This document shows, in pieces, positions 1,013 to 16,085 of a stretch of 64,000 nucleotides of DNA; position 1 is the stretch's first letter, and each line of letters opens with the position of its first letter. Position numbers and translations under genes: made by a program. The notes beneath the pieces are model-generated. The model had not been told where the DNA came from. It was given only the letters and a program-made list of their open reading frames with translations, and ran no database searches. The stretch is from Salinirubellus salinus (lineage in GTDB: Archaea > Halobacteriota > Halobacteria > Halobacteriales > Haloarculaceae): NCBI RefSeq assembly GCF_025231485.1, contig NZ_CP104004.1:124001-188000 (forward strand). The letters run 5' to 3'.

Positions 1013-1393
1013 GACTCGACTACCAGCAGAGCTAGCGATGGATAGTTCCGTCTTCGAGGTCCCTCGACGATATCGTTATATCCAAGCGTGGAGTAGCTAT
1101 AGTGAGCCTTGAACGGCTCATCATATCAAAGTAGGAAGGGCCACTCGCCTTTCCATTCCACTAACGATGAGCTGTAGCGCCGTTACGTGAGCGAGTTTCT
1201 GTACTGACTGCTTCTGTTCGACGTGGTCGTTCGCGGTCTGTCGTCAAGGGCGCGCTGGAGCCACGTTGAATGTACGCGGGATTGTGGGAGGTTCCAACGA
1301 GAAACCGACAGACAGCGCAGGGATACCACGATACAGTTATCATCGCTGTCAGCCTCTCTGCGAGTGGAAAGCACGGCGCTTTCTTACTTTGAT
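1013..1393. other. Non-coding stretch before the OB-fold gene
   Basis: I find no convincing gene here. The frame of the downstream gene stays open back to 1223, but those residues are basic and atypical, so I place the start at 1394. The stretch contains one arm of an inverted repeat (1121-1137) whose other arm overlaps the start of the next gene. Confidence 0.6.
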
Positions 1394-1397
1394 ATGA
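1121..1397. repeat. 17-bp inverted repeat, arms 260 bp apart
   Basis: Bases 1121-1137 read TCATATCAAAGTAGGAA. The reverse complement of 1381-1397 reads TCATATCAAAGTAAGAA, so 16 of 17 positions match. The right arm overlaps the ATG at 1394. It could be a pair of regulator sites or the ends of a 277-bp non-autonomous insertion; no target duplication is evident. Confidence 0.6.
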
Positions 1398-3625
1398 GTG
1401 GATACACCGACAGGTCCGACCTCACTGAGGACGGACAACAGAACGGCAGTACCGAAATCGAACACAACACCGAACATGAGCACCCCACCCACACTGTTCG
1501 CCTGTTCTCACAGGCGGCAGACCACGGATTCCCGGCGACGGTTCGCCTCTCCACCGAGGAGATCCGCCGTCTCGACGATGGAGTGGAATCCCCGACGATT
1601 CGTCGGTGGCTCAACCTCGATGCAGACACGAACGCAGACGCGAGTTCCCACTCGCCGTCCGCACTCTCGACAGAGCGTGAGTTCCGTGGCACTGTGGATG
1701 GACAACACTCGACCACCGAATCTGACTCCGAATTCGACACCGATGTCGACGTCCTCGCCGATGTCGATGCCGGTGTCGACTTCGACCGTGAGTCCGAGCG
1801 TACTGGTGCGCACGAGTCCGGTTCTGAACTCGAACTCGAACGTGAATCCGAGGGCGTCTACGGCTGGTACGATGACCAACCGATGGTCGCGTCTCGGAGT
1901 GATGAGCGGAGGACTGAGATGAACGCTTGCGGACGACCCGCTGATGCGCTCTCTGAGTCCGATGTTCTCGCACGTGGGCAGTACATCTACATGGGCCACG
2001 ACCGCCTGACCGACCCGACTGGGGACCAGTTGACGGGCACGGCATCTGGCTTCGATGAGTACGACCCCATCAGTTCGACGGAGGTTCCGGTGCGCCTTGG
2101 ACGAACACTCGTCCCTGAAGACCAGCTGGATGCACACACTCGCCGGCTGCGTGCGCTGAAGGTCATCCCCGAGGATGAGCAGGCGCCACGCGAGGCAGAG
2201 GGTGTCGGAACGGACGATCTGGAAGTGACGCTTCCCTCTGGGGAGTTAGTCGCACTCCGGACTCTCGTTGCGAATCCAGCGGAGTACTCTCGATCGTCGA
2301 TTCCTGGTATCGAGCGCCGGCTGGCGTTGGATGCAGAGCTAAAGAGAGTCTCTGCGGGAATTGACGCTGCTGGACACCTGACTGGCCTGGCTGCGACGTT
2401 GGATGCACACACCGACTTGCTCGCTCGCTACCGGAGCGCGCGTGCTGGTGTTGCTCCTGCGCGTCGTGAACAGACCGTCGCCCAGCAACTCTACGACCTC
2501 GCCGAGCCCCTTCGGGAGCTCGACGCTGAGGATTCCGAACTTCGTGAGGAGGTCTTGACTGAAGCACGCAGATTGCTCCAGGCTGAGACCGTCCACGAGA
2601 TTCGTCGCCGACCCGTCGAAGTCGCGTCCGACCTTGCACAGCGTGTGCTGGATGGACAAGATGTGACGTCGGCATTCCTCAGACTCCTCGAAGACGAAGC
2701 AACGAACCCGAGAAACGTCCTGCGAATCAACGCGATTCTACAGGCGAACCTCTGGTCCTCGAAAGGCTATCTCACCACGCAAGGCGTCGTGAAGAAGGTC
2801 TACCATGCTGACGTCCCTGGATTGAAATTCGGGATGATCGTCAAGGATGGAGATCGCCGCGAGGATGAAGTTCGTGTCTCTGTCTGGGAGTCAAGCGAAG
2901 AGGAAATTACTGCATCAACGGCCGACCCGGATGACGCCGATGGAGAAGTAATCATCTCGAAGAAGATTCTCGCCGAGCCGAACGAAGGTGACGTGGTCCG
3001 CCTGGTTGACTTCAAGCTACCGTACAAGAAGTCCAACCAGACGTATCAAGGTCAACCGAAGCTCGACTCGCGTTGGGAATCCGAGATTCAGATTCTCGAG
3101 CGTGCACCGATCACCGCACCGACTCGCTCGACGCCTGCGACACCTCAGCGTGTTAGTCAGTCGTCGCGCTCGTCTGATGCTGGTGAGGCTGTTCCCCGGA
3201 GTTCCGCTGCGAAGTTCTCTGGTGACGTTTCGACAACCTGGCCTTCGCCAGTGCTGCTCGAGACGCTCATCGAAGACGAACTCGCTCGTGTCTCCGACCG
3301 CGTTCAAGCAATAGCCGAACGCAAACAGCTCGCACAGCAAGAGCGTCAGATGAAGCGAAACCGCCGATTCCTCACGGACCACCCTGAGGCACTCGGTCTC
3401 TTCAAGGCAAACGCGTTGATGAGATTCGTGAACGGCGACTCGCCTCGTGACCCCTCGTCGTGTTGGGTTTGTGGTGTCCGGAACGATGACATGAACTACG
3501 ATCCGGTCGTAGCGTCTCGATTCCACCCACTCTGCCTGGCACGCGCTGGTGTTGAGAGTTGTAAGGAATACACCGAACAGCGCCTCACCGAGTACACCGA
3601 GTCACTCGATGGAGGAGCTGCCTGA
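1394..3625 (+). CDS. Large OB-fold/zinc protein of the mobile element
   Basis: This is a 743-residue protein from the ATG at 1394. The N-terminal half is low-complexity and acidic, with Asp/Val and Glu/Leu repeats around residues 115-155. A middle helical part (about 330-450) precedes an OB-like segment (about 462-571) that begins TTQGVVKKVYHADVPGLKFG. Near the C-terminus CWVCGV (about 689) and HPLCLARAGVESC (about 712) supply a zinc-site pattern. The gene lies with an RPA homologue and a primase, so single-stranded DNA binding during element replication or transfer is the likely role. I do not recognise a named family, and the OB assignment is by eye. Confidence 0.7.
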   Translation: MSGYTDRSDLTEDGQQNGSTEIEHNTEHEHPTHTVRLFSQAADHGFPATVRLSTEEIRRLDDGVESPTIRRWLNLDADTNADASSHSPSALSTEREFRGTVDGQHSTTESDSEFDTDVDVLADVDAGVDFDRESERTGAHESGSELELERESEGVYGWYDDQPMVASRSDERRTEMNACGRPADALSESDVLARGQYIYMGHDRLTDPTGDQLTGTASGFDEYDPISSTEVPVRLGRTLVPEDQLDAHTRRLRALKVIPEDEQAPREAEGVGTDDLEVTLPSGELVALRTLVANPAEYSRSSIPGIERRLALDAELKRVSAGIDAAGHLTGLAATLDAHTDLLARYRSARAGVAPARREQTVAQQLYDLAEPLRELDAEDSELREEVLTEARRLLQAETVHEIRRRPVEVASDLAQRVLDGQDVTSAFLRLLEDEATNPRNVLRINAILQANLWSSKGYLTTQGVVKKVYHADVPGLKFGMIVKDGDRREDEVRVSVWESSEEEITASTADPDDADGEVIISKKILAEPNEGDVVRLVDFKLPYKKSNQTYQGQPKLDSRWESEIQILERAPITAPTRSTPATPQRVSQSSRSSDAGEAVPRSSAAKFSGDVSTTWPSPVLLETLIEDELARVSDRVQAIAERKQLAQQERQMKRNRRFLTDHPEALGLFKANALMRFVNGDSPRDPSSCWVCGVRNDDMNYDPVVASRFHPLCLARAGVESCKEYTEQRLTEYTESLDGGAA

Positions 3626-3978
3626 GTATGTGTATGAGCACAGTTGATACCCGTACTCAGGTTCGGATTCAGGCTCAGATTCGACAGACCTCGATAACGG
3701 TACTCCCCGATACCTGGTTGTGTCCTGAACTGTAACGAACCCTAGCACCCCCGAGTTCCCTACCGATCGAACTCAGAATTCCAACTAAATTCTCTTTCGA
3801 AAACCAAACCTGTAGCCGCCGAGCAGCGCCTCAGCCTCCCGAACCGCCGATCACGAACCCCCCAGAAGCAGCCTGTGCTACGGTCGATGTCGTGCGGACC
3901 AGAATGTGGTGGGTGTAGTTCCACATTCAATGTAGCCAACGAGTCCTCATACGGGTGAGACGCATATGGAACAACAGT
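3626..3978. other. Non-coding stretch with promoter of the DUF555 gene
   Basis: There is no supported gene. The notable content is the inverted repeat at 3903-3935 (AATGTGG facing CCACATT) and the near-palindrome CCACATTCAATGTAG at 3921-3935. These lie about 45 nt ahead of the DUF555 start. Confidence 0.5.
3921..3935. promoter_or_regulatory. Candidate operator CCACATNNNATGTRG
   Basis: CCACATTCAATGTAG is a near-perfect palindrome upstream of the gene at 3979. A sister site, CCACATTGGATGTGG, lies at 16109-16123, upstream of the TATA box of the pilin gene. The shared spacing and palindrome suggest one regulator for both. Confidence 0.45.
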
Positions 3979-4458
3979 ATGACGACGTCTGGGCACGGTG
4001 AGGAGGAGACATGGTTTGAGGTACAGCTGTCGGTTCCATGGGTGGTGGCGGGAACGACGGGCGTCCAGGACGTAATCAACATCGCGGTGTCGGAGGTGGG
4101 CAAGAGGGTGAATCAGACGTCGGCGCGGTACTCGGAGATCGTCGTTCAGGACGTCGCGTGTCCGTCCTGCGGGTATGAGTATGAGGCGGCGCTTTCGACG
4201 ACGGATTTCGCGTTGGTGGTCGTGACGGTGTTGGCGCAGTTCGAGGCGTCCTCAGCGGAGGAGAGTTCGCGCATCGCGAAGCGTGAGTTGGGTGTGCGAA
4301 TGAAGGATATTCCGTTGACTGTCCTTGGGGTTCGGCGGGCGTCGTCAGCAGTGGAGCCAGCGGTGGAAACGGCGTCGGAGCCGGACGCGGTGACAGATGC
4401 GCCCGCAGGGGACAGGCCGGAGAGTGACGCCTCGAGGTCAAGCTCCTCGGCGAGGTAG
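3979..4458 (+). CDS. DUF555 (UPF0212) protein
   Basis: This is a 159-residue protein. ATG 3979 is preferred over ATG 3955 because family homology begins with FEVQLSVPWVV just after it. The core matches DUF555/UPF0212: DVINIAVSEVGKRVN near residues 31-45, a CPSCG zinc knuckle at 61-65, the segment SSRIAKRELGVRMKDIPLTV, then a disordered Ser/Ala/Glu tail from about residue 125. Chromosomal DUF555 proteins are small zinc proteins of unknown function. This copy sits on a mobile element and has the extra tail. The molecular role is not known. Confidence 0.85.
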   Translation: MTTSGHGEEETWFEVQLSVPWVVAGTTGVQDVINIAVSEVGKRVNQTSARYSEIVVQDVACPSCGYEYEAALSTTDFALVVVTVLAQFEASSAEESSRIAKRELGVRMKDIPLTVLGVRRASSAVEPAVETASEPDAVTDAPAGDRPESDASRSSSSAR

Positions 4459-5099: not shown

Positions 5100-5327
5100 C
5101 TACCAGGACGGTCGGGTGAACGCGTGGAGGATGCGGCGGATCGTCGAGATGACGATGTATGCGGTCGAGACTGCGAAGCCACCGACACAGACGGTCCAGA
5201 GGCCGGTGGTAGCGAACTGCGGATCGACAGCGAGGAACATCATCCCGACGTAGGCGGTGATAAACATCGAAAAGACGGCGGTGGTCAGGAGCGGTACGTT
5301 GACCGGGGGTGCATATCGGATGGACAT
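5100..5327 (-). CDS. Small two-helix membrane protein
   Basis: This 75-residue protein starts at ATG 5327. It has two hydrophobic segments (about 13-33 and 41-62) separated by a short polar loop, and a basic C-terminal end (RRILHAFTRPSW). It lies on the same strand as the RPA and primase genes and downstream of one copy of their shared hairpin motif (5500-5525), so it is probably part of the same regulon. The function is unknown. A small helper of the transfer apparatus is possible but not shown. Confidence 0.55.
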   Translation of the reverse strand: MSIRYAPPVNVPLLTTAVFSMFITAYVGMMFLAVDPQFATTGLWTVCVGGFAVSTAYIVISTIRRILHAFTRPSW

Positions 5328-5730
5328 AATTCGTGGTCGGAGTCGAAGGTGAGTCGAGACTGATCGGTTCGGTCGGGTCGGCGGCGCACGGCCGCGCCGC
5401 GGACAAACTCGAGATCGAGCTGGAGCTGGAGCTCTGGCTCGGAATCGGAACGACGCGAGTGTCGTCGATGTCGCGGCGAGACGCCGCGCTGCTCGACTTC
5501 CTCACCCCTTTAGGGGACCAATACTCGGCCCGAGAGTGACCGTCCATCCGAGGGGGGTCGAACCGCATCGGTAACCGGCCGAGCGAAGCGAGGCCGGGAG
5601 CGGAGCGGGGCGGCGGAACGGGGCGGGGCGGAAGCGACAGGCCTCTCACAACCGGGGGAGCGCTAGCCGAGCCGGATCAGGGGATTCGAGCGTCAAAAAA
5701 CGCCTCCGGGAGGTGGGGACGGCTCGCCCC
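5328..5730. other. Non-coding GC-rich stretch with shared hairpin motif
   Basis: The segment 5570-5640 is a run of G-rich purine repeats. One copy of the shared module motif is at 5500-5525. An open frame on the plus strand (5333-5539) has no gene-like features. Confidence 0.5.
5500..5525 (-). promoter_or_regulatory. Shared hairpin motif, copy 1
   Basis: On the minus strand it reads AGTATTGG, one base, then CCCCTAAAGGGG, then TGAGG. The CCCC/GGGG arms form a hairpin or dyad. The same layout recurs at 7391-7426, 7541-7571 and 8239-8270. The GGGGTGAGG part resembles a Shine-Dalgarno sequence that the CCCC arm could mask in RNA. Confidence 0.6.
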
Positions 5731-7326
5731 TTATTGGGCTTGAGCGAGACTCGCTTCCGGCGCGATGTCCTTGATGGCCGCCTCGACTGCCGCTTCGATG
5801 TCGGAGACATCCGACTGGTACACCGACTGGACGGCGTCGGTGGCGTCGGAGTCGCGACTGGCGAGCGCGCCGAGGCGCTGCTGGGTCGCGTCGATGGTCT
5901 CGGCCACCCACGAGTCACGGGCCTCGCGGTCGACGACCGTGATGGACTCAGGTTGGATGGACACCTTCACGCCGTAGTCCGTCTCGTAGTGGTGGAGTTT
6001 GCCGACCACGGCCACGTACGAGGGCGTCTCGGCCGACCGGAGCACGTCCATTGCCTCTGCCTGGTACTGCCCGGCGTAGAGGTTGGCGGCCTCACCAGCG
6101 GCCATCACGCGCCCCTTCCAGAACTCGGAGTCACTGCCGACGTCAGCCGTCTCGATGAGCGTCCCGACGACGAACACGCGGTTGGCCGCCTCGCCACTCG
6201 GCAGGAGCGTGAACTTCGGCGCTCGGTCATCGCCCTCGTCTTCGGGGCGGGTGAACGAGTGGGTCGCCTGGTTGAGTTCTTCGGCAAACAGGCGCTTGGC
6301 CGGCTGGCGCTGAGTGACGGCCGGGGCGATGATCGCGTCGCTGAGGCCGGGGTTGTCAGCGGAGTAGCCCGTCTCGACCGCTTCGTCCACGAGGAAGTAC
6401 TCGCCGACGACCGGGCCACGCACATCGAACGTCTTCCCGATGAGCGAGGCGCGGAGTTCTGCGCCGACCACGCTGGCGTCGAGGGCATCAGCGGCCATTT
6501 CCTTCGCTCGCTCGAGTGTGATGCCACTGACAGCGGTGGTCATCTCGGCGTTGAACAGCGCTCGGACAGCGCGCTCACCGTCGTCGAGGATCGCTTTCAG
6601 CCGAAGGTCGAACACACCATCAACTTCGCCGTGCTCGGAGCAGCGGCCGTTCTGGACGACGCGGGTGCAGTCCTCGTGGGGACAGCGCTTGATCAGGCCA
6701 CTGCCGTCTTCGAGGGCGACGAGCGTGCCCGTTGCGCGCACTTTGCCGTCGGTGGATTCGACGGCGTCCTCGGCGGCGACCTCGGTGACCTCGCTGGCCT
6801 TGTTGAGCGAGATGGAGTACTTGCCTTCGTACTCGTTGGTGATGGCCGAGGCGATGTCGTAGGTGACGCCCTCCTCGAGGGCAGGCAGGCTCTCAGTGTT
6901 CTTCTGCCAGACGACGAACTTCATCTGGGCGCTCTCATCACCGATGAGGCCGACCTGCCGCATGGAGTCGTGCTTGGGCTCCCAGAGGTCGACGACCTGC
7001 ACTCGGACGTCCACCCATTCCTCCGGGCCGACATCTGCGATGTCGCCGAGCATGACGCGCTCGAAGGCGTGCGAGCCGCTCGCGTCGCCACCGAAGCCCG
7101 CCAGCGCCGAGATGTCCTCGGACAGGTCGCCGTCGTCGAGGTCGTACTCCGCTGCGAGGTTGCGAACCGTCGTCGTGGTCGCCTCCTCGAGAGGGACGCT
7201 GAACTCCTGCATCGCCGCGATTCGCTCCTGGACGGTCGAAGCGGGCACGTCCACGCCCATCTCGCCGAACTTGCCGCTGATGTCTGCCGCACGCTGCTCC
7301 ACGCTGAGGTTGGAGTTTGCACTCAT
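5731..7326 (-). CDS. RPA-like single-stranded DNA binding protein fused to an RPA-associated domain
   Basis: This is a 531-residue protein. I choose ATG 7326 (MSANSNLSVEQRAADIS) rather than the upstream ATG because replication factor A similarity starts there. After an N-terminal helical region comes an OB-fold (about 100-145: WVDVRVQVVDLWEPKHDS). A zinc-finger pattern CPHEDC...CSEH lies near residue 212. The C-terminal third (about 380-450, with EFWKGRVMAAGEAANLYAGQY) resembles the RPA-associated COG3390 protein, normally encoded by a separate gene. It should coat single-stranded DNA during element replication. It lies next to the primase and carries two shared motifs in its leader. Confidence 0.9.
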   Translation of the reverse strand: MSANSNLSVEQRAADISGKFGEMGVDVPASTVQERIAAMQEFSVPLEEATTTTVRNLAAEYDLDDGDLSEDISALAGFGGDASGSHAFERVMLGDIADVGPEEWVDVRVQVVDLWEPKHDSMRQVGLIGDESAQMKFVVWQKNTESLPALEEGVTYDIASAITNEYEGKYSISLNKASEVTEVAAEDAVESTDGKVRATGTLVALEDGSGLIKRCPHEDCTRVVQNGRCSEHGEVDGVFDLRLKAILDDGERAVRALFNAEMTTAVSGITLERAKEMAADALDASVVGAELRASLIGKTFDVRGPVVGEYFLVDEAVETGYSADNPGLSDAIIAPAVTQRQPAKRLFAEELNQATHSFTRPEDEGDDRAPKFTLLPSGEAANRVFVVGTLIETADVGSDSEFWKGRVMAAGEAANLYAGQYQAEAMDVLRSAETPSYVAVVGKLHHYETDYGVKVSIQPESITVVDREARDSWVAETIDATQQRLGALASRDSDATDAVQSVYQSDVSDIEAAVEAAIKDIAPEASLAQAQ

Positions 7327-7390
7327 AGTAGTCTCTCTGAGGGGGATTTCACGAGTCAAGACAGAACGAGGACGTGCCTCGCCCCACCCG

Positions 7391-7426
7391 CACTTCCCTC
7401 ACCCCCTTTGGGGGCCAATACTTTCG
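7391..7426 (-). promoter_or_regulatory. Shared hairpin motif, copy 2
   Basis: Minus-strand order is CGAAAGTATTGG, then CCCCCAAAGGGGG, then TGAGGGAAGTG. It lies about 70 nt upstream of the RPA start. Confidence 0.6.
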
Positions 7427-7540
7427 GGAATCGCAAGCAGGACAACCGCCAGTGGCGGAGTTTTAACAGATCGGCGTTGCTCGCATCGAGCCGCTCGTGA
7501 GGTCGAAGATCGAGAAAATGGACGTCGTCACGCCCTCTCT

Positions 7541-7571
7541 CACTTCCCTCACCCCCTTTGGGGGCCAATAC
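7541..7571 (-). promoter_or_regulatory. Shared hairpin motif, copy 3
   Basis: The 31 bases are identical to 7391-7421 and lie 150 bp further upstream of the RPA gene. Confidence 0.6.
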
Positions 7572-7925
7572 CCACGTCAAAGGGGAAAGCCGAACTTGTC
7601 TTCGTTGAAAGTCTCGCTCGATTCTGAATTCCAGTGACTGTAGTCGATGTCGGGAGCGTATTCGAGTTGTATTTCTCTCTGGTAGGCCCTAGGATTATAT
7701 GTTCCTAAGATAACCTGTTGATGCCGGGAGATGTCAGAGGCACTGGCTCCCCCACCCCCAATCCCCTTGCATACTGGTAGCCGCTACCCCGGAAGAGTGG
7801 TTGTCGAGATAGAGTCAAGGATTGTCCATTACTCCCTTTTAGCAGCACGCATACCGAATTGGTCATCCACTGTGGATTGCTCTGAAGCCTAAGCCTGGAA
7901 TCCTGCTCTTAGCACATGATGTGGA

Positions 7926-8231
7926 TTAGAACGTGTAGTCGTCACGAACGACCGCGTTCGCACAGGATTCACAGAGGACGTCGAAGGGCGGCCACCCGGT
8001 GAGGCCGTCGGCGTCCTCGAGGAGCGCGGTCGGGACCAGGCCGCTGGTCCCACAGCCACCGTCACACGAGGTGAACGAGTGGCTGACCGCGGCGAAGGTC
8101 TCGCCGTGCGGGTCGTGGTCGGGCTTGCGGAACTCGGGTTCCTCGCCCGTTTTGAAGGACACGCTGACCGGCTCGCGCTCGGCCGTGTGGTTGGTATCGG
8201 TGCGCCGCTCGTCGGACTGGATGTTGGTCAT
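7926..8231 (-). CDS. Small zinc-binding protein
   Basis: This is a 101-residue protein. ATG 8231 (MTNIQSDERR) is preferred over ATG 8261 because a GGGGTGAGGG ribosome-binding sequence sits about 8 nt ahead of it and the upstream ATG lies inside the shared hairpin. Two cysteine pairs, CDGGCG (around residue 55) and CESC (around 88), suggest a treble-clef or ribbon zinc site; the rest is acidic and polar. It sits between the RPA and primase genes, so a replication accessory or regulatory role is likely. No named family is recognised. Confidence 0.75.
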   Translation of the reverse strand: MTNIQSDERRTDTNHTAEREPVSVSFKTGEEPEFRKPDHDPHGETFAAVSHSFTSCDGGCGTSGLVPTALLEDADGLTGWPPFDVLCESCANAVVRDDYTF

Positions 8232-8238
8232 CTCAAAT

Positions 8239-8270
8239 CCCTCACCCCATTTGGGGTCCAATACTTTCGC
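8239..8270 (-). promoter_or_regulatory. Shared hairpin motif, copy 4, overlapping a ribosome-binding site
   Basis: Minus-strand order is GCGAAAGTATTGG, A, CCCCAAATGGGG, TGAGGG. Here the 3' arm is placed as the ribosome-binding site of the gene at 8231. Pairing of the CCCC arm with it would hide that site. Confidence 0.65.
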
Positions 8271-8361
8271 AGCGACGAGGAAGGGGACACCACGGGCCGT
8301 GCGGGAGCGACGCCGCCGAGACGCGCGGCGATCACCCTACCAGCAAAGCCGGGAAGCGGAG

Positions 8362-10569
8362 TTAGCCGAAGAAGCGGGAGAACATCCCTCGTTGTTTCCG
8401 GCGTTCACGTTCGTCGGCCTGGATCTGCTCGTTTGCCTCCTCGTACTCGCGGAGGACGGCGTCGAGGCCGGAGAGCGTCTCCTTGGCCGTCGCAACGTCT
8501 TCGCGACGGACCAGCGGGCGGAGAATCTGCTTGAGCCGCTTGACGGGGTCGTCCGGAAGGTCGGAATCCGCCGGCGACAACAAGCCGGCCCGCTTGAGCT
8601 GGGTCCGGTAGCGTTCGCGTTCGCCCATCAGCTCGTCCATCGCCTTCAGGTAGGTCTCGGCGGTGAACTTGTAGCGGTCACGTTCCGCCTCAACATCCGC
8701 GAGATCGCGGAGCCGCTCTTCGAGGCGGGTCTGATACCGCGCCAGCACGCGGTTGTCCTCGCGAGCGACCTTCATCGCCTGGGCTGTCGGCGTTCGACCC
8801 TCGATGGGACCAACGGTCCAATCCGTCGGATGTTTCTCGGAATCGTCGAGATGGGGATTGGTCCGCGACCAGTTGCCACCGGCTTTCGTGACGGATTCGG
8901 TCATCATCCGCTGCGTACTCTCATCGAGGTCGGAGTCGATGTCCGTCCCGTCGGGAGCAGCGGGCGAGACGCCCTCCGGAGTGACGCTCCCACCAGGGGT
9001 CGACTCGCCCCGGTCGTTCGAGGCGGGGGAAGCGTCGCGCATGGCCGTCGACGCTGACTGTCCAGTGGGGGCGTTCGCAGCCGCGTCCGCAGCAGCGGCC
9101 GGGTCCACACCCATATCCACACCCACACCTCCGTCGTCGGCCCCACTGTCGCTGTCGTTGTCGCCGTCGAGGTCGAGGAGTACGTCGGGGGGACTCTCGG
9201 CGGCAGTCGCGGCGTCATCCGTGTGCAGCGGACCTGGGGCGCTCGGAGCGGCCTCGGCCGATGCAGACGCGCCATCACTCACGAAAGAACCCCCGGCCGC
9301 ACCAGCGGAGTCCTGTGGCTTCTGAGCGGATGCTGAGGATGCCACGTCATTCGCGGGGATATCCAAGGCCGAGGTCGAGGGAGAAGACGATGCCGTTGGC
9401 CCGTCGGCCTTCGAGAACTTCACCCCATCGTCACTCGGGAGTTCGTAGTGGTCATCCACTCGGAGGAGCGCGCGGGCGAGAGTGACGCCGCCATAGGTCG
9501 CACCACTCGAGTAGTGTTGGCCGTCCCACTTGGGTCGCATCAACCCGGAGGTACGAAAGAGCGCGTCCATCCGATCGGGGTCTTTCCCCGTCCAGAACGC
9601 AAGCGTATGAGCGAACGCCATATCCGCTTCAGACTGACTCGGATAGTCGGCATCGTGAGACCCCCACATCGAGGAATCGCCTTCGTAGAGGCGGCGTTTT
9701 CGGTCGCCACCTTGCGAGTCGTACATCCGATTCAGAATCTCGCCATCTGATAGCTCGATACCGGGCCCTGCGAGGTCGGCAAACGTACTGGGGCACACCG
9801 GGGGAAGGTACTTCGTCTGGACCCGCTCGAGGGCTTCTCGGATGGCCGGGTCACGGATGTTTCTGAAGGCGTCACCGTAGCGCTCGACGAGTGCGCTTTC
9901 ACTCTGCCGACCAGGGACTTCGGTGGAACGCCGACCGCCACGATTACCTCCACTTTCTGAGGTATCGCTCGCGGCGGTATCGGCGAGACTCAACTGCCCA
10001 TCCGAGCTGGACTCACCACGAATGTACTCACCGTGAACGGCGTCTAACTCGTCCTGACATTTCCGAATCTCCGTGGGCGTGTCCTCGAGGTGGGCCCCAG
10101 TCACGGTGAAGTAGCGATCAGAGTCGTACATCTCGACGCGACCCCGGCGATTCCCGGCGGCGGTCAGTTCGCCCCCGACGAGGATATGCACACCCGTGCC
10201 GGAGGGAGACACTTCGGTGTATGAGTCGAGTCGGTCGATGATATCTTCGGCCCAGTCTTCGAGCTCGCCTGTATCAGGGTCACGACACTTATCGAGGTCG
10301 ACGCCGGTGATGGAGACGTTGTCGGTGAAGACGAAGCCAAGGCCATCGCCGGGCACGCGGGAGTCGTTGAGTGCCTCCCACGCAGTGTCGAAGTCGCGGC
10401 GCTGTTTGGGGTTGGTGACGTCGCAGTTGATATCACCGCTGGTTCGATACGGTTTAGTCGGGATTTTGGTAGCTTTCCCGTTGCGCTCTCCCTCACGCCA
10501 GAGAATCCAGTTCTCGATAGAGCGGATATTGGCCGGGATTGCGTCGTTTGTTACGTCTATATTCGTCAT
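8362..10569 (-). CDS. Primase-polymerase (phage NrS-1 polymerase-like)
   Basis: This is a 735-residue protein from ATG 10569 (MTNIDVTNDAIPANIRS). The N-terminal 190 residues match archaeo-eukaryotic primase-type polymerases: GVDLDK with Asp91 and Asp93 as metal ligands, SPSGTGVH at 121-128 and YFTVTG at 153-158. A middle domain (about 260-370: DGEILNRMY, DRMDALFRTSGLMR) matches the NrS-1 polymerase family helical domain. Then come a long low-complexity acidic linker (about 400-590) and a coiled coil (about 620-720) ending in a basic patch. There is no helicase motif, so unwinding must come from elsewhere. Priming or replication of the mobile element is the expected role. Confidence 0.85.
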   Translation of the reverse strand: MTNIDVTNDAIPANIRSIENWILWREGERNGKATKIPTKPYRTSGDINCDVTNPKQRRDFDTAWEALNDSRVPGDGLGFVFTDNVSITGVDLDKCRDPDTGELEDWAEDIIDRLDSYTEVSPSGTGVHILVGGELTAAGNRRGRVEMYDSDRYFTVTGAHLEDTPTEIRKCQDELDAVHGEYIRGESSSDGQLSLADTAASDTSESGGNRGGRRSTEVPGRQSESALVERYGDAFRNIRDPAIREALERVQTKYLPPVCPSTFADLAGPGIELSDGEILNRMYDSQGGDRKRRLYEGDSSMWGSHDADYPSQSEADMAFAHTLAFWTGKDPDRMDALFRTSGLMRPKWDGQHYSSGATYGGVTLARALLRVDDHYELPSDDGVKFSKADGPTASSSPSTSALDIPANDVASSASAQKPQDSAGAAGGSFVSDGASASAEAAPSAPGPLHTDDAATAAESPPDVLLDLDGDNDSDSGADDGGVGVDMGVDPAAAADAAANAPTGQSASTAMRDASPASNDRGESTPGGSVTPEGVSPAAPDGTDIDSDLDESTQRMMTESVTKAGGNWSRTNPHLDDSEKHPTDWTVGPIEGRTPTAQAMKVAREDNRVLARYQTRLEERLRDLADVEAERDRYKFTAETYLKAMDELMGERERYRTQLKRAGLLSPADSDLPDDPVKRLKQILRPLVRREDVATAKETLSGLDAVLREYEEANEQIQADERERRKQRGMFSRFFG

Positions 10570-10690
10570 AGATTCATCGTGATGTTCGGAAGGGTCGTCG
10601 CCACTCGACGGCGGGCGAAACAAACCCGGATTGTCGATATCGACCCGATTTCAGGGAAAATCGACACCCCGCGCGCGATTCGCGCAGAAC

Positions 10691-10715
10691 TGGTGACCCC
10701 CTCTAATCCAATACT
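10691..10715 (-). promoter_or_regulatory. Degenerate shared motif upstream of primase
   Basis: Minus strand AGTATTGG is intact and followed by GAGGGGGT, but the CCCC arm is missing. It lies about 140 nt ahead of the primase start. Confidence 0.4.
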
Positions 10716-10770
10716 ATGATATGTAGCATCGAAGGAGCCGAATGGGGCCACCAGATTGCTCGATAGAGCC

Positions 10771-10808
10771 TCTGGGCCGTTTTGCGCGCGTGCGCTAAGT
10801 CCCGACGG
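10771..10808. repeat. Direct repeat, copy 1
   Basis: These 38 bases are identical to 10960-10997, and weaker similarity continues for about 90 bases more. The core includes TTTTGCGCGCGTGCGC. Confidence 0.85.
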
Positions 10809-10959
10809 TTGGGGAGTCGTCGCAGACCCGGATTCTGGGGGTAGAAGGCTCTTACCTACTGAGCGCGGCGTGCGCGGATTTTGCGCGGATTTGCGCGCAC
10901 TCGAATCACCTTCAATTTGGCCGATTTTGATCGGAGCAACGAGCGCGCTTTTTAGACCT

Positions 10960-10997
10960 TCTGGGCCGTTTTGCGCGCGTGCGCTAAGTCCCGACGG
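10960..10997. repeat. Direct repeat, copy 2
   Basis: Second identical copy, 189 bp after the first. Downstream both copies keep a GTANAAGGC word and a GCGCGC-rich tail. Confidence 0.85.
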
Positions 10998-11091
10998 GTA
11001 GGAGGCGGTCTCAGACACGGGGTCTGGAGGTACAAGGCCCCTACATGCTGTGCGCGCCGTGCGCGTACTTTGCGCGCACCGCCGGAGAGGG

Positions 11092-14000
11092 TTATTCAAG
11101 GTCATCGAGTAGATTGGCCGCGCTGACGAACTCCCATTCTCCATCCGACCCCCAGATCGACTCGGTCAGTTCACCGTGTGACCGCCCCCGTCGTTTGGCA
11201 GGGAGCTCGTCGATTAAGCCGGCGTTCGCGAGAGCCCGCGCGATATTCCATGCTTCTGAGAGATTTGGGACGACCCAGATTTTCTTCTCGACGTCGAAGC
11301 AGTTGAAGTCCTCGTAGTGCTTGACGATGTGCTCGTGGCGTACGTTCCAGATCGCCTCTCCAATCACAGCTGGCTTGTCGTCTTTGTACGCGACGACATC
11401 TGGCTTCACGTCGGTCCCGAAGATCGGGGTGTATCGCTTGACGAAATAGTGAGAGGTATCATCGTTCGCGAGTGTGCGAGCGAGTGCCTCGACCATCACC
11501 TTGTGGTAGGTCTTCTCGTTGACGTCACCCTGGTCTTCACCAAAGGCGACGCGAGCGCCACACGCACGCTGACCGTCCTCGGTGACGGTGTAGTAGACAC
11601 GGAGATTCTCGATCACCTTCTCTAGGTAGCCGAGGTCGATGAGCCGGTCGGGGGATACCTCAGAGAAGTGACTATTTATCGGCTTCATCGTATCGAGCAT
11701 ATCGAACTTGGGATGTCGACCGTTCACAGTTGTCACGACGGCGGCGAGAAATTGGCGTTCCTGAACTGTCAGATTCTCGTCTATGTCTGAGCCAACGCCA
11801 CCGACCCAGGTATCGTGCCGGTCGGCGTGGTCAGCGTCCGAAGGGTTCTCCGTGGCCGCCCCCGCTCCATCGGCGCGGGTCGTATCTCCCTCCACGCCAC
11901 CCTGTGCAACGGCGGTAGCAGTCTCGTCCGTGGTGGTTGGGTCGGCCCCGTTGTAGAGGAAGTCGTTGATACGATCTTCCAGATTGCTTACCGAATCTTC
12001 ACCGCCACGTTCAGCGGGAGATTCGGCCTGAGCGCCACCGATTCCTTCGCTGGCTGCTCGGCGCGAACCAAAGTCGTCCGTGAGGTCGTCGGCGGGCCGG
12101 GTGACAGGCCTCGACGGGCCATTCTGATCGCCACCATTTGCGGGTTGCGTCCCGACCTGAGTTGCTACGTTCCGCCGACTCTCCCAGACGTCTTCTTCGG
12201 GCTCCGAGTCGGAGTCGGGGCCGGAGCCGGACACATCGTTGTGGTGTGCGTTCGGATCGGTGGCATCGACCCCAGAGCCGGTGTGGGATGCCGAGAGTTG
12301 CTCGGCGGAGGGGTCCGTGTTGCTTCCGGGGATGAGACAGTAGTCGTCCCGCGTTTGGCGTGTCTTCTTCGCGTCGATCCCTCCGAAGGAGTCACCGTAG
12401 GGTGAGACTGAATCCTCGTTCACGGGGTCGTCCGAGTCCCGGTGGCCGGCGGGGATGCCGACCGGCAGGAGCGTGACAAGTTCGGGAACGTCGGTCATGA
12501 AGCCCGTGTCGGGGAGTTGGGCGACCCATTCCCCACGAGGGAGTGACGTAATCCGGTCAACGAGTTCCTCGTCTTCGATGCCCTCGTGGAAGAGTGTCAT
12601 CACCAGCTCTTCGTCGACGGCGAGTTTGCCGATGAGTTTGGTGTTGATGTTCCGCAGAATCTCCTTGTAGGAGGAGACGTCGAGGGCGTCGGATTTCACC
12701 TGCTCGGCGAAGTGAACGATAACCTCGAGGGCGAGGCCGAACTCACGGCCGTCGGGGATCATGTCGTCGCGAACCAGTTCGGACTGGAGGAGCGGTGCAG
12801 CCTCGTCGATAATCAGGTTGATGACGTAGCCATCGCTGACAGGCGGTGTCTTGCCGAGGCGATGGCGGAGGCGAGCGCCGGACCAGATGTAATCGAGCAA
12901 CATGAACGTGAAGAGGTTGCTCGAGGCGGGCCGGAGGTCGCCGGTGTCGATGAGAACGACGCGCTTGCTGGCGAGGATGTCCTGGATGTCGAACATCGGC
13001 GATTGGTGGGCGTAGTGCCCGTTCTCCTCGTCCCATTCTGGGACGAAGTTGAGAATCCGCCAGATGAACGACCGCTCTGCTAGTTTCGTTATCCGATTCA
13101 TCACCGCGTCGATGGAGGTCATGAACCGCTGGCGGTCAGCATCGACGTGGCGCTGAAGGGTCCGGTGGAGCGTGGCATCGCTCACGGGTGGGAGCTTCCC
13201 CTGAGCCTTCGTTTCCTCGTTCATGCTCCCAAGTTTCTGCATGTCCATCGCCGCAGTCAGGAGGTCGCTGATGGGCCATGCATCCTGGCCGTGAACGGGG
13301 TCGAACATCGCCTTGATGAGGCTGTTGAGAATTTCCTGAGCGACGAATGCCTGGTCAGCCATTTCTCGACCGAGGACGTACACGAGCAGTTCGTTGTAGC
13401 GGTCGATTTTCTCTTGGACAGCGACGGTTCGACTGACGCCGGCGGCGAGTTGCGGGCGAATATCGAAGTAGGGGAACGCGAGGACCTCGTCATTCGGCCC
13501 AGGGACGGTGATATGGACGACGTCGTCGAGGTTCCCGAACTTCTTGAAGTGGGCGCGCTTGTACTGGTCGGCCATCGACCCGCCCTTCTTGTCGAAGACG
13601 AAGATGGGGCCGTCGAACGACTCGTAGGCGCTGAGGGTGTCGTTAATCATCGCGGTGGTCTTCCCGCCACCCGTCGTGGCTGCGCGCATCACGTGGTGGG
13701 TGAGTTGTTCGGCGCTCAGGCTGATCGGGATGTCCGGCCGGTTGTCGACGGCAGTCTCGGCGTACCCGATACACATCCCGTGGTTATACTGCGAGAGGAG
13801 GTCCTCGTCAGTCGCAGTGAGTGGCGAGCGAGCGTCGGGTGATCCGCCGGAGGATCCGCGACTCGCGCGGGGGAGTGCGTCCGTGTGGGGGACGACGACG
13901 AAGTTCGCGAGTTCGTCGGGCGAGGCACACAGGATGGGGTCGGCTTTGCTGAAGCGCCCGGAGAGCCCGCTCGAGGTCGCAAGCCGGGCGTGACAGAGCG

Positions 14001-15435
14001 CGGCGAACTCTTTGTCGCTGATGCCGAGGAGGTCGCCTTCGATGCCGTAGTAGGGGCCTGACAGCGAGGTGAAGGCGTTCGAGATGCTCTGGATGGTCTG
14101 TTCGTTACAGGCGGCCCGGAGCGTGAGGTCGAACGTCGTCGTGGGCTGTTTGTGGTCGATCTGGGCCATCCGCGAGCCGGTGATTTTGTTGCTGTCACCG
14201 GCGGTGACGGTCCCTCCGACCTGTTCTGAGATATCGCCTCGGTGGATGTTGCGGCGTTCCTGTTCTGAGGTACCGAACATCTGGCGGGCGAACTCGTTTT
14301 TGAACGCGCTGAACGTCCCGTGGTTGCCCATCTTGAGGTTGCGCTTGTGGACTTCGGCTTCACTCGTCCAGTCGGGTCGTGGTTTGAACACGGCCTGGAA
14401 CATGAACGGGTCGTCGGCGTGCACAGCCTGCTCAAGGAGGACGCTCAGGGGCGACCGATACTGGTCGTCGTTGTCCGTCGCGATGTCGCTGAACGGCCGC
14501 AGGAGCGTCATCCAGTCGTTCTTTTTCGACGAGATGCCTTTCCAGCGAACCAGCGAGGGGCGTTTCTCCTCGGGGACTTCCTCGGGACGGAGGGGGACGC
14601 CTTTCTTGATGAGTTGCTGCTCGGCTTCCTCTGGTGAGGGCCCGTCGCCACGGCCGATATCGTGGTCCTCGAACACGGCGGGATCCTCGAACCCGCTGAG
14701 GCGCTCGAGGTCGCCAATATCTTCGAGGGTCGCAATCCGCCGACCGCCCACCTGTGCGTTGCCGTTGTCGCTGGCGAACGCGGCCACGGGGTTGAACGGG
14801 ACGATCTCGAATTCAAAAGACTCGGGATACATCGCGGCGATGTTGGCAGCGAGTGTCTTGAACGCGGTTGCGTCGTAGGGCGTTACCGAGACGTAGAAGT
14901 CGAAGCGTTTGGTGTCTCGCGGCTTGTGAATGACGAACTCGAAAGATTTCTTCGTGTCTTTGAGTCCGAGGCGGCCCGCGAGGTTGAACCGCCCAGTGTC
15001 GGTGACGCCGGCTCGATAGAGGCCGAAGAGTCCGGCGATTATGTTACCGGGCGTGACCTGCTCCCGAGCGGGGGAGATGTGGATGTACGGGCGGGCTTCA
15101 ATAGGGTCGCCGAGTTTCTTTCCGGGCCCGGACCCCACTTCGACGTCCTCGTAGTCGGCGAGACGGTCCTCACGTGACGCATCCTGGTCGCCTGCGGTTG
15201 CTGGCGTCTTGACGCGGTCAAGGTCAGATGACTCTGTGCGAGTCTCTGCGGGGATTTCCTCCTCTGTACGGTCGTTCTGGTGCTCGCTCGCGTCCGTCGT
15301 GGAGTTCGGAGCGTCGGCCCGGAGACGCGAGAGGTCGAGGCCTTTCCGCTCAAAGACGCTCTTGGGGGGCTGTGAGCTCTCTTGAGCGTCGGCGTCCTGG
15401 TCGAGTGTTTCGCGGTCTGAGGGCGTTGCGGTCAT
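11092..15435 (-). CDS. Conjugation-type ATPase (VirB4/TraC/HerA-like) with C-terminal nuclease-like domain
   Basis: This 1447-residue protein starts at ATG 15435; the frame is open further upstream but the residues there are not protein-like. A disordered N-terminus is followed by a long domain with PYIHISPAREQVTPG. The P-loop ATTGGGKTT is near residue 583 and Walker B LIIDEA near 873, as in FtsK/HerA-type transfer ATPases. An acidic linker (about 990-1210) leads to a winged-helix-like segment (about 1230-1310). The last domain has KPDVVAYKDDKPAVIGEAIW (about 1342-1361), which resembles a PD-(D/E)XK nuclease strand pair, although the usual final Lys is not seen. It should power DNA export through the pilus encoded nearby. 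Confidence 0.85.
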   Translation of the reverse strand: MTATPSDRETLDQDADAQESSQPPKSVFERKGLDLSRLRADAPNSTTDASEHQNDRTEEEIPAETRTESSDLDRVKTPATAGDQDASREDRLADYEDVEVGSGPGKKLGDPIEARPYIHISPAREQVTPGNIIAGLFGLYRAGVTDTGRFNLAGRLGLKDTKKSFEFVIHKPRDTKRFDFYVSVTPYDATAFKTLAANIAAMYPESFEFEIVPFNPVAAFASDNGNAQVGGRRIATLEDIGDLERLSGFEDPAVFEDHDIGRGDGPSPEEAEQQLIKKGVPLRPEEVPEEKRPSLVRWKGISSKKNDWMTLLRPFSDIATDNDDQYRSPLSVLLEQAVHADDPFMFQAVFKPRPDWTSEAEVHKRNLKMGNHGTFSAFKNEFARQMFGTSEQERRNIHRGDISEQVGGTVTAGDSNKITGSRMAQIDHKQPTTTFDLTLRAACNEQTIQSISNAFTSLSGPYYGIEGDLLGISDKEFAALCHARLATSSGLSGRFSKADPILCASPDELANFVVVPHTDALPRASRGSSGGSPDARSPLTATDEDLLSQYNHGMCIGYAETAVDNRPDIPISLSAEQLTHHVMRAATTGGGKTTAMINDTLSAYESFDGPIFVFDKKGGSMADQYKRAHFKKFGNLDDVVHITVPGPNDEVLAFPYFDIRPQLAAGVSRTVAVQEKIDRYNELLVYVLGREMADQAFVAQEILNSLIKAMFDPVHGQDAWPISDLLTAAMDMQKLGSMNEETKAQGKLPPVSDATLHRTLQRHVDADRQRFMTSIDAVMNRITKLAERSFIWRILNFVPEWDEENGHYAHQSPMFDIQDILASKRVVLIDTGDLRPASSNLFTFMLLDYIWSGARLRHRLGKTPPVSDGYVINLIIDEAAPLLQSELVRDDMIPDGREFGLALEVIVHFAEQVKSDALDVSSYKEILRNINTKLIGKLAVDEELVMTLFHEGIEDEELVDRITSLPRGEWVAQLPDTGFMTDVPELVTLLPVGIPAGHRDSDDPVNEDSVSPYGDSFGGIDAKKTRQTRDDYCLIPGSNTDPSAEQLSASHTGSGVDATDPNAHHNDVSGSGPDSDSEPEEDVWESRRNVATQVGTQPANGGDQNGPSRPVTRPADDLTDDFGSRRAASEGIGGAQAESPAERGGEDSVSNLEDRINDFLYNGADPTTTDETATAVAQGGVEGDTTRADGAGAATENPSDADHADRHDTWVGGVGSDIDENLTVQERQFLAAVVTTVNGRHPKFDMLDTMKPINSHFSEVSPDRLIDLGYLEKVIENLRVYYTVTEDGQRACGARVAFGEDQGDVNEKTYHKVMVEALARTLANDDTSHYFVKRYTPIFGTDVKPDVVAYKDDKPAVIGEAIWNVRHEHIVKHYEDFNCFDVEKKIWVVPNLSEAWNIARALANAGLIDELPAKRRGRSHGELTESIWGSDGEWEFVSAANLLDDLE

Positions 15436-15542
15436 CGCATCACCTCTACGCGGCCGGGGAGAGGTCTCCCGGTGGGGCGTGCGATGGTCGCGAGAGTCCC
15501 GGTGGGCGGGACGATTCGATTGCTGTTGGTGTGCTCGGTCAT
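15432..15542 (-). CDS. Possible 36-residue peptide coupled to the ATPase gene
   Basis: ATG 15542 opens a frame of 36 residues (MTEHTNSNRIVPPTG...) whose TGA overlaps the ATPase start as ATGA, the usual coupling pattern. The same frame is open upstream to about 15700 without an ATG or GTG. A longer protein with an unusual start, or a start lost by mutation, is therefore possible. No homology is recognised. Confidence 0.35.
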   Translation of the reverse strand: MTEHTNSNRIVPPTGTLATIARPTGRPLPGRVEVMR

Positions 15543-15716
15543 TATCGTGATTGGCGGGTGAGCGTCTCGTCCGGGGACGCCGGTGTTCCACGGGGTAATG
15601 CCTCGGAAGCTGTCGCTCCCGAGCTGTGAAACGAGCCACTCGGAAAGGGCCCGGTTGGTTGTTCGGGCACGAGTGGGACGATGATTGAGGTGTGTTTCCT
15701 ATCCGTCCCTGCCGGG

Positions 15717-16058
15717 TCAGGGGGTGGCGATCCACTCGAGGAGCGTCACGAAGACGGTGACCCCGAAGTAGAAGATCGTCATGCTGGCTCCGCCGATCAT
15801 GAGCCACATCCCGTTTTCTGCACGGTCGGAGTTCTTGCGGGCGGTGAACCAGACGATTGCGCCTAGCGCGAGGCCGACGAGACCAGCGTACTTGAGGACG
15901 AGCAGGACGGTGTCGTACAGGTTGGTCATGATGCCTTCCAGACCACTCGTGCCGGTCTGTGCCGCGACAGGCTGCACGAAGAGGGTCAGTGCGATGAGGG
16001 CCATGAGGACGGTCATTCGGTGCTTCTTCAGGAGTTTCGTTACAGGGAGGGTGTTCAT
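15717..16058 (-). CDS. VirB2/TrbC-like pilin subunit
   Basis: This is a 113-residue protein from ATG 16058 (MNTLPVTKLLKKHRMTV). A basic N-terminus and hydrophobic stretch (15-33) end in VAAQTG, a plausible signal peptide cleavage site. Two further membrane helices (about 52-72 and 84-108) are separated by a short basic loop (ARKNSDRAENG). This is the size and layout of type IV secretion pilins. It lies 5' of the transfer ATPase on the same strand, so the two probably form one operon. A TATA-like TTTATTCTC lies at about 16089-16097. Confidence 0.75.
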   Translation of the reverse strand: MNTLPVTKLLKKHRMTVLMALIALTLFVQPVAAQTGTSGLEGIMTNLYDTVLLVLKYAGLVGLALGAIVWFTARKNSDRAENGMWLMIGGASMTIFYFGVTVFVTLLEWIATP

Positions 16059-16085
16059 GTGATTCCTCGAACACGAGTACGGCGA

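Follow-up and report, generated by a model that had tools for sequence, protein, structure and literature searches.

A short composite sequence that recurs on a large plasmid of Salinirubellus salinus, ahead of genes for RPA-type single-strand DNA binding proteins and several other genes, most likely acts as a promoter switch common to these genes, not as an RNA hairpin. The best explanation, which we regard as probable, is a plasmid-specific composite core promoter combined with a dyad that is bound by a plasmid-encoded trans-acting factor. We infer that the motif is a promoter, that the transcript starts after it, and that the dyad is an operator.

Distribution of the motif on the Salinirubellus salinus plasmid

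The window, that is, the whole stretch of 64,000 nucleotides that was analyzed, is part of a replicon of 249,332 bases (C2:124001-188000); the other contig of the genome is 4.13 Mb. Four copies of the arrangement AGTATTGG-N-CCCC-NAAN-GGGG-TGAGG, all on the minus strand, were located in the window (Table 1), far above the chance level (0.00 expected; 0 in 100 dinucleotide shuffles). The four-fold repeat reported in the first-pass annotation is thus real, although three of its four positions were off by 1-6 bases. Within the whole genome, the motif is restricted to plasmid C2, with up to three mismatches allowed. A weight-matrix scan of C2 detected six strong sites, all scoring 34 or more (C2:132265, 131572, 131422, 129525, 123737 and 121569). 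A weaker site (score 20.2) lies at C2:108715, before the plasmid PCNA gene; the best score in eight simulated copies of C2 was 16.5. The PCNA unit is headed by a small ORF of 49 aa, the ATG of which lies 34 nt after the box, and a long-loop variant of the motif precedes the plasmid TFB gene. The scan found the divergent plus-strand genes of the plasmid to be without a motif copy.

The copies had been described as always lying in leaders of an RPA, zinc protein and primase set. This holds for the RPA and zinc copies, but the copy at 5500 precedes a small ORF of 75 aa, and outside the window copies are also found before two more RPA-type genes (C2:123737 and C2:121569) and PCNA. The zinc-ribbon-like gene is present in only 11 plasmid records. 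A viral origin of the motif was rejected given that the pattern was not found in viral contigs and RPA is missing from phage records. A search of the literature did not yield a description of the motif.

Table 1. Motif copies and genes discussed in the text. Coordinates are positions in the window unless prefixed by C2 (the plasmid) or L006.
Feature	Coordinates	Strand	Evidence and remarks
Motif copy AGTATTGG-T-CCCC-TAAA-GGGG-TGAGG	5500-5525	-	Candidate promoter of the 75-aa small ORF; orthologous copies in relatives
Motif copy, RPA-proximal	7397-7422	-	Promoter candidate; box start 96 nt before RPA ATG (95-108 in relatives)
Motif copy with one mismatch (GGTATTGG...), distal in RPA tandem pair	7547-7572	-	Pattern match
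Motif copy before zinc-protein gene	8240-8265	-	ATG 34 nt after the box start; 34-35 nt in nine relatives
CATAGTATTGG box, primase leader	10708-10718	-	Alignment; contains perfect AGTATTGG at 10708-10715
p125, 800-aa protein	1223-3625	+	OB-fold-like stretch (by reading); conserved in ten of ten relatives
DUF555 protein with CxxC	about 3955-4458	+	Conserved in ten of ten relatives
75-aa ORF	5100-5327	-	Membrane-protein-like by reading; behind the 5500 copy; annotated orthologue in Salinigranum rubrum
RPA-type single-strand DNA binding protein	5731-7326	-	NCBIfam PRK07217, E 4e-93 (under that model's cut-off); PDB 2kbn
Small zinc-ribbon-like protein (CxxxC/CxxC)	7926-8231	-	Cysteines read from sequence
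NrS-1-type primase-polymerase	8362-10569	-	PF22763, E 6e-26
Large ORF, weak VirB4/HerA-like ATPase matches	11092-16074	-	Conserved neighbour; recognised motif copy not found
RPA-type protein with TFIIS zinc ribbon	C2:121910-123808		Motif copy ahead; zinc ribbon matched on orthologue
Gene annotated 'replication factor A' in relatives	C2:120446-121543		Motif copy ahead
p118, protein of unknown function	C2:118146-118868		Common to the plasmids
Conserved 175-aa protein of unknown function	C2:118143-118670 (L006:14143-14670)		Adjoins TFB in tier-2 plasmids
Plasmid TFB	C2:109245-110339		Outside the window; plasmid-specific clade; TATA-plus-dyad promoter type
Plasmid PCNA	L006:3516-4535		PF00705

Conservation in related and more distant plasmids

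The motif is present at orthologous places in ten related plasmids (tier-1: Salinigranum, three from Haloplanus, Halarchaeum, Haloglomus, Halorientalis, Halorarius, Halobellus and Haloarcula), with 3-10 matches each, some of them counted in two registers. Essentially all these matches lie on the strand of the genes that they precede, compared to four matches in the reversed-pattern controls, and the motif is retained while the flanks diverge. In Halorarius, the tandem RPA copies have merged into one via a deletion between them, so that a single RPA copy appears to suffice. All 11 of the 11 more distant plasmids (tier-2, including Natrinema and Halococcus) carry the layout TTTATC-NN-CCC-NAAN-GGG-N-TGAGG, with 48 matches, among them RPA upstream regions, confined to one strand per plasmid, and none in the controls. 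The check proposed in the first-pass annotation, a search for the motif in other haloarchaeal plasmids, thus revealed conservation in 21 plasmids, and the characterization of the motif as module-specific and regulatory is borne out by its placement on one strand and before genes. The tier-1 pattern is rare among the sampled genomes (7 of 146 in the family, 8 of 391 in the class); a pattern scan of genome contigs returned haloarchaeal matches mixed with unrelated bacterial ones. The zinc protein was considered as the regulator of the motif and rejected because Haloarcula pelagica and most tier-2 plasmids bear the motif, with no zinc homologue detected.

The primase leader, where a degenerate copy had been noticed near 10691, retains one part of the motif only. 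The AGTATTGG box is perfect and conserved, being part of CATAGTATTGG, which is kept in 10 of 10 aligned plasmid primase leaders (in a single plasmid, AGTGTTGG / CATAGTGTTGG) and is preceded in relatives by the TATA-like TACATAT, TTTTA or TTTAT. The GGGG dyad, on the other hand, was not found to be conserved across the aligned plasmids, and the hairpin folding test detected no folding of this copy.

Two other features were observed around the primase gene. The minus strand of the primase leader contains a small inverted repeat, TCGCC-N11-GGCGA (10598-10618), and the aligned place in Haloarcula pelagica reads ACGCCT..AGGCGT, a two-sided change. The gap separating the ATPase gene from the primase gene holds a pair of imperfect ~130-bp direct repeats (GGGCCGTTTTGCGCGCGTGCGCTAAGTCCCGACGG...), at about 10757-10905 and 10950-11095; one edge of these repeats is conserved in relatives, and they are possible iterons or a possible origin.

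A predicted composite promoter

In an alignment of 41 sites, the only AT-rich element is the box (0.70 A+T compared to at most 0.48 from -100 to -6), in which T3, T5 and T6 vary little or not at all. The distant plasmids hold TTTATC at the box position, and the TFB genes have TTTATT, TTTGTC or TTTATC. The distance from the box to the ATG is 34-36 nt for the zinc genes (34-35), the small ORF of the PCNA unit, a leading gene of tier-2 and one TFB gene, which fits the spacing of leaderless or near-leaderless haloarchaeal genes. Haloarchaeal TATA boxes have been described as TTWT, 72% of the coding transcripts of Haloferax volcanii are leaderless (PMC4983044), and the TATA motif of halovirus HF2 begins at -26 (PMC8707807). 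Because the box starts 34 nt before the ATG of the zinc gene, a near-leaderless transcript is predicted for this gene. With the box standing in for TATA, transcription should begin downstream of the hairpin. Given that the 100 bp upstream offer no other AT-rich element and that start codons follow the box by 34-36 nt, the dyad probably lies outside the transcript.

Under the composite promoter model, the AT box (AGTATTGG, or TTTATC in the wider plasmid family) would sit in place of the TATA element, and the GC dyad together with TGAGG would extend from about -22 to -5, between TATA and the start site of the transcript. The promoter copies would drive the genes for the RPA types, the zinc protein, PCNA and the TFB that the plasmid itself encodes, and a variant would serve the primase. 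The dyad would most likely be the binding site of a plasmid-encoded trans-acting factor (a repressor or autoregulator) that may set the genes behind all copies together, for example, linking replisome output to copy number. Several observations do not sit easily with this model: AGTATTGG is no textbook haloarchaeal TATA box (TTWT), the primase has the box without the dyad, and the arms of the dyad show weak complementarity apart from their shared CCCC/GGGG. Furthermore, no CGAAA BRE was found before the box in the 41 aligned sites, where upstream conservation is weak.

Dyads in such a position usually bind a repressor or autoregulator, and the dyad overlaps the predicted promoter (columns 10-21 after the box start). 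The earlier proposal of an operator for an element-encoded repressor is compatible with these data and remains the likeliest role of the dyad, although comparison of the conserved proteins detected no HTH protein common to all plasmids as a candidate repressor. The proteins of unknown function common to the plasmids are p118, p125 and the DUF555 protein; TFB is also common. The genes for p125 and the DUF555 protein are divergent from the regulon and have no motif copy. In the TFB promoters, the arms of the dyad are 9-12 nt apart, compared to 3-4 nt elsewhere, so that one dimer would not easily span them.

Alternative explanations

The plasmid TFB itself might recognize these promoters. Under this scenario, which we consider attractive but on balance unlikely, the plasmid TFB together with host TBP would preferentially read this promoter class and run the replication regulon, including the TFB gene; the box, dyad and TGAGG would be the recognition sequence and a repressor would be unneeded, much as with a bacterial alternative sigma factor. 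Indeed, a TFB is encoded on 21 of the 21 plasmids, no plasmid TBP was found, and the TFB genes carry the promoter type, with a TTTATT or TTTGTC box followed by the long-loop dyad. The TFB of this plasmid groups with those of the tier-1 plasmids, Halarchaeum alone excluded (nine of ten), in a single long-stem clade (100/100 support). In PLSDB, exactly nine records contain a TFB of this clade (at least 52% identity, whereas the next match has 47%), and each of them carries the motif. Among the genomes compared, the clade is represented in 11 of 14 with the motif and in 0 of 12 without it. However, co-inheritance on one backbone yields such a correlation anyway, and the association is incomplete: Halarchaeum pCBA1220-03 has retained the AGTATTGG motif but has no TFB of this clade, and the same applies to three genomes with a motif match (G089, G395 and G445). 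Moreover, haloarchaeal plasmids often carry a TFB (matches in 255 PLSDB records), the BRE, which is the classical target of TFB, is not conserved here, and the dyad is common to plasmids whose TFBs belong to different clades. An archaeal sigma-like regulon, in which the plasmid family's own TFB reads a private promoter and activates both a private replisome (primase-polymerase, RPA types and PCNA) and itself, appears slightly more doubtful still. One TFB orthologue (G090:C49:128179-129105) contains an in-frame TAA.

A hairpin in the 5' leader that hides or presents the ribosome-binding site, the RNA reading of the first-pass annotation, is improbable. The motif is strand-specific and invariably has the orientation of the gene, a GC stem of 4-6 bp can form, the long-loop variants in the TFB leaders look hairpin-like, and the SD-like GGGGTGAGG lies 8 nt before the zinc ATG. 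Nevertheless, GGGGTGAGG is kept also where the ATG is ~93-211 nt from the box and, being retained with the start codon either 8 nt or more than 170 nt onward, it is no ribosome-binding site in general. Arm changes (C->T 9, G->A 11) are without G-U bias, arm complementarity beyond the shared CCCC/GGGG is weak (99/2000 permutations), with weak compensation, the folding is no better than that of shuffles at one copy and modestly better at two, and no Rfam match was found. An upstream AT-rich promoter element from which the hairpin would be transcribed was not found within 100 bases, which is an indirect argument; together with the location of the box in the place of TATA, these findings disfavour the RNA switch, and a dyad that is probably untranscribed argues against it as well.

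It is highly improbable that the copies are iterons or single-strand priming hairpins for the NrS-1-type primase that fell into intergenic gaps by chance because, although they are one-stranded, dyad-shaped and located within ~24 kb of the replication region, their orientation tracks the genes, their spacing to some start codons is fixed, the divergent plus-strand genes lack them, the AT box is a normal TATA box in relatives, and some copies precede genes, those for PCNA and TFB, that lie a long way from the primase.

Relation to known systems and implications

The closest known kind of element is the class I/II intergenic repeats of halovirus HF2 (PMC8707807). Like these repeats, the plasmid motif is intergenic and element-specific, follows the orientation of the genes and keeps its position in relatives; the HF2 repeats contain the TATA element and the start region, are proven promoters and, in the case of class I, are found among replication genes. 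However, sequence similarity between the two was not recognised: HF2 has AT/gamma motifs rather than the CCCC-NAA-GGGG dyad, whereas the plasmid motif belongs to large plasmids with RPA, PCNA, primase and TFB. The motif also resembles the haloarchaeal basal promoter (BRE CGAAA, TATA TTWT, -10 WW; PMC4983044) in having a single AT box ~34 nt before the start codons of genes predicted to be near-leaderless. The TTTATC and TTTATT boxes of the plasmids match TTWT, whereas AGTATTGG deviates from it, the BRE is missing, and the GC-rich dyad with TGAGG takes the place of the WW element.

In the multiple-TFB regulation of haloarchaea, a divergent TFB goes with a set of genes that has a distinct promoter; here, by contrast, the plasmid TFB, its promoter and its presumed targets travel on one plasmid.

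Little is understood of the way in which large archaeal plasmids time and balance the replication machinery that they encode. The motif described here defines a putative regulon that comprises the RPA types, PCNA, TFB and the zinc protein and extends, through a variant, to the primase. The regulon is carried by at least 21 plasmids from different haloarchaeal families, and the motif gives its candidate promoters base by base. This plasmid family provides a setting in which to ask whether the extra TFB of a mobile element acts as a dedicated initiation factor.
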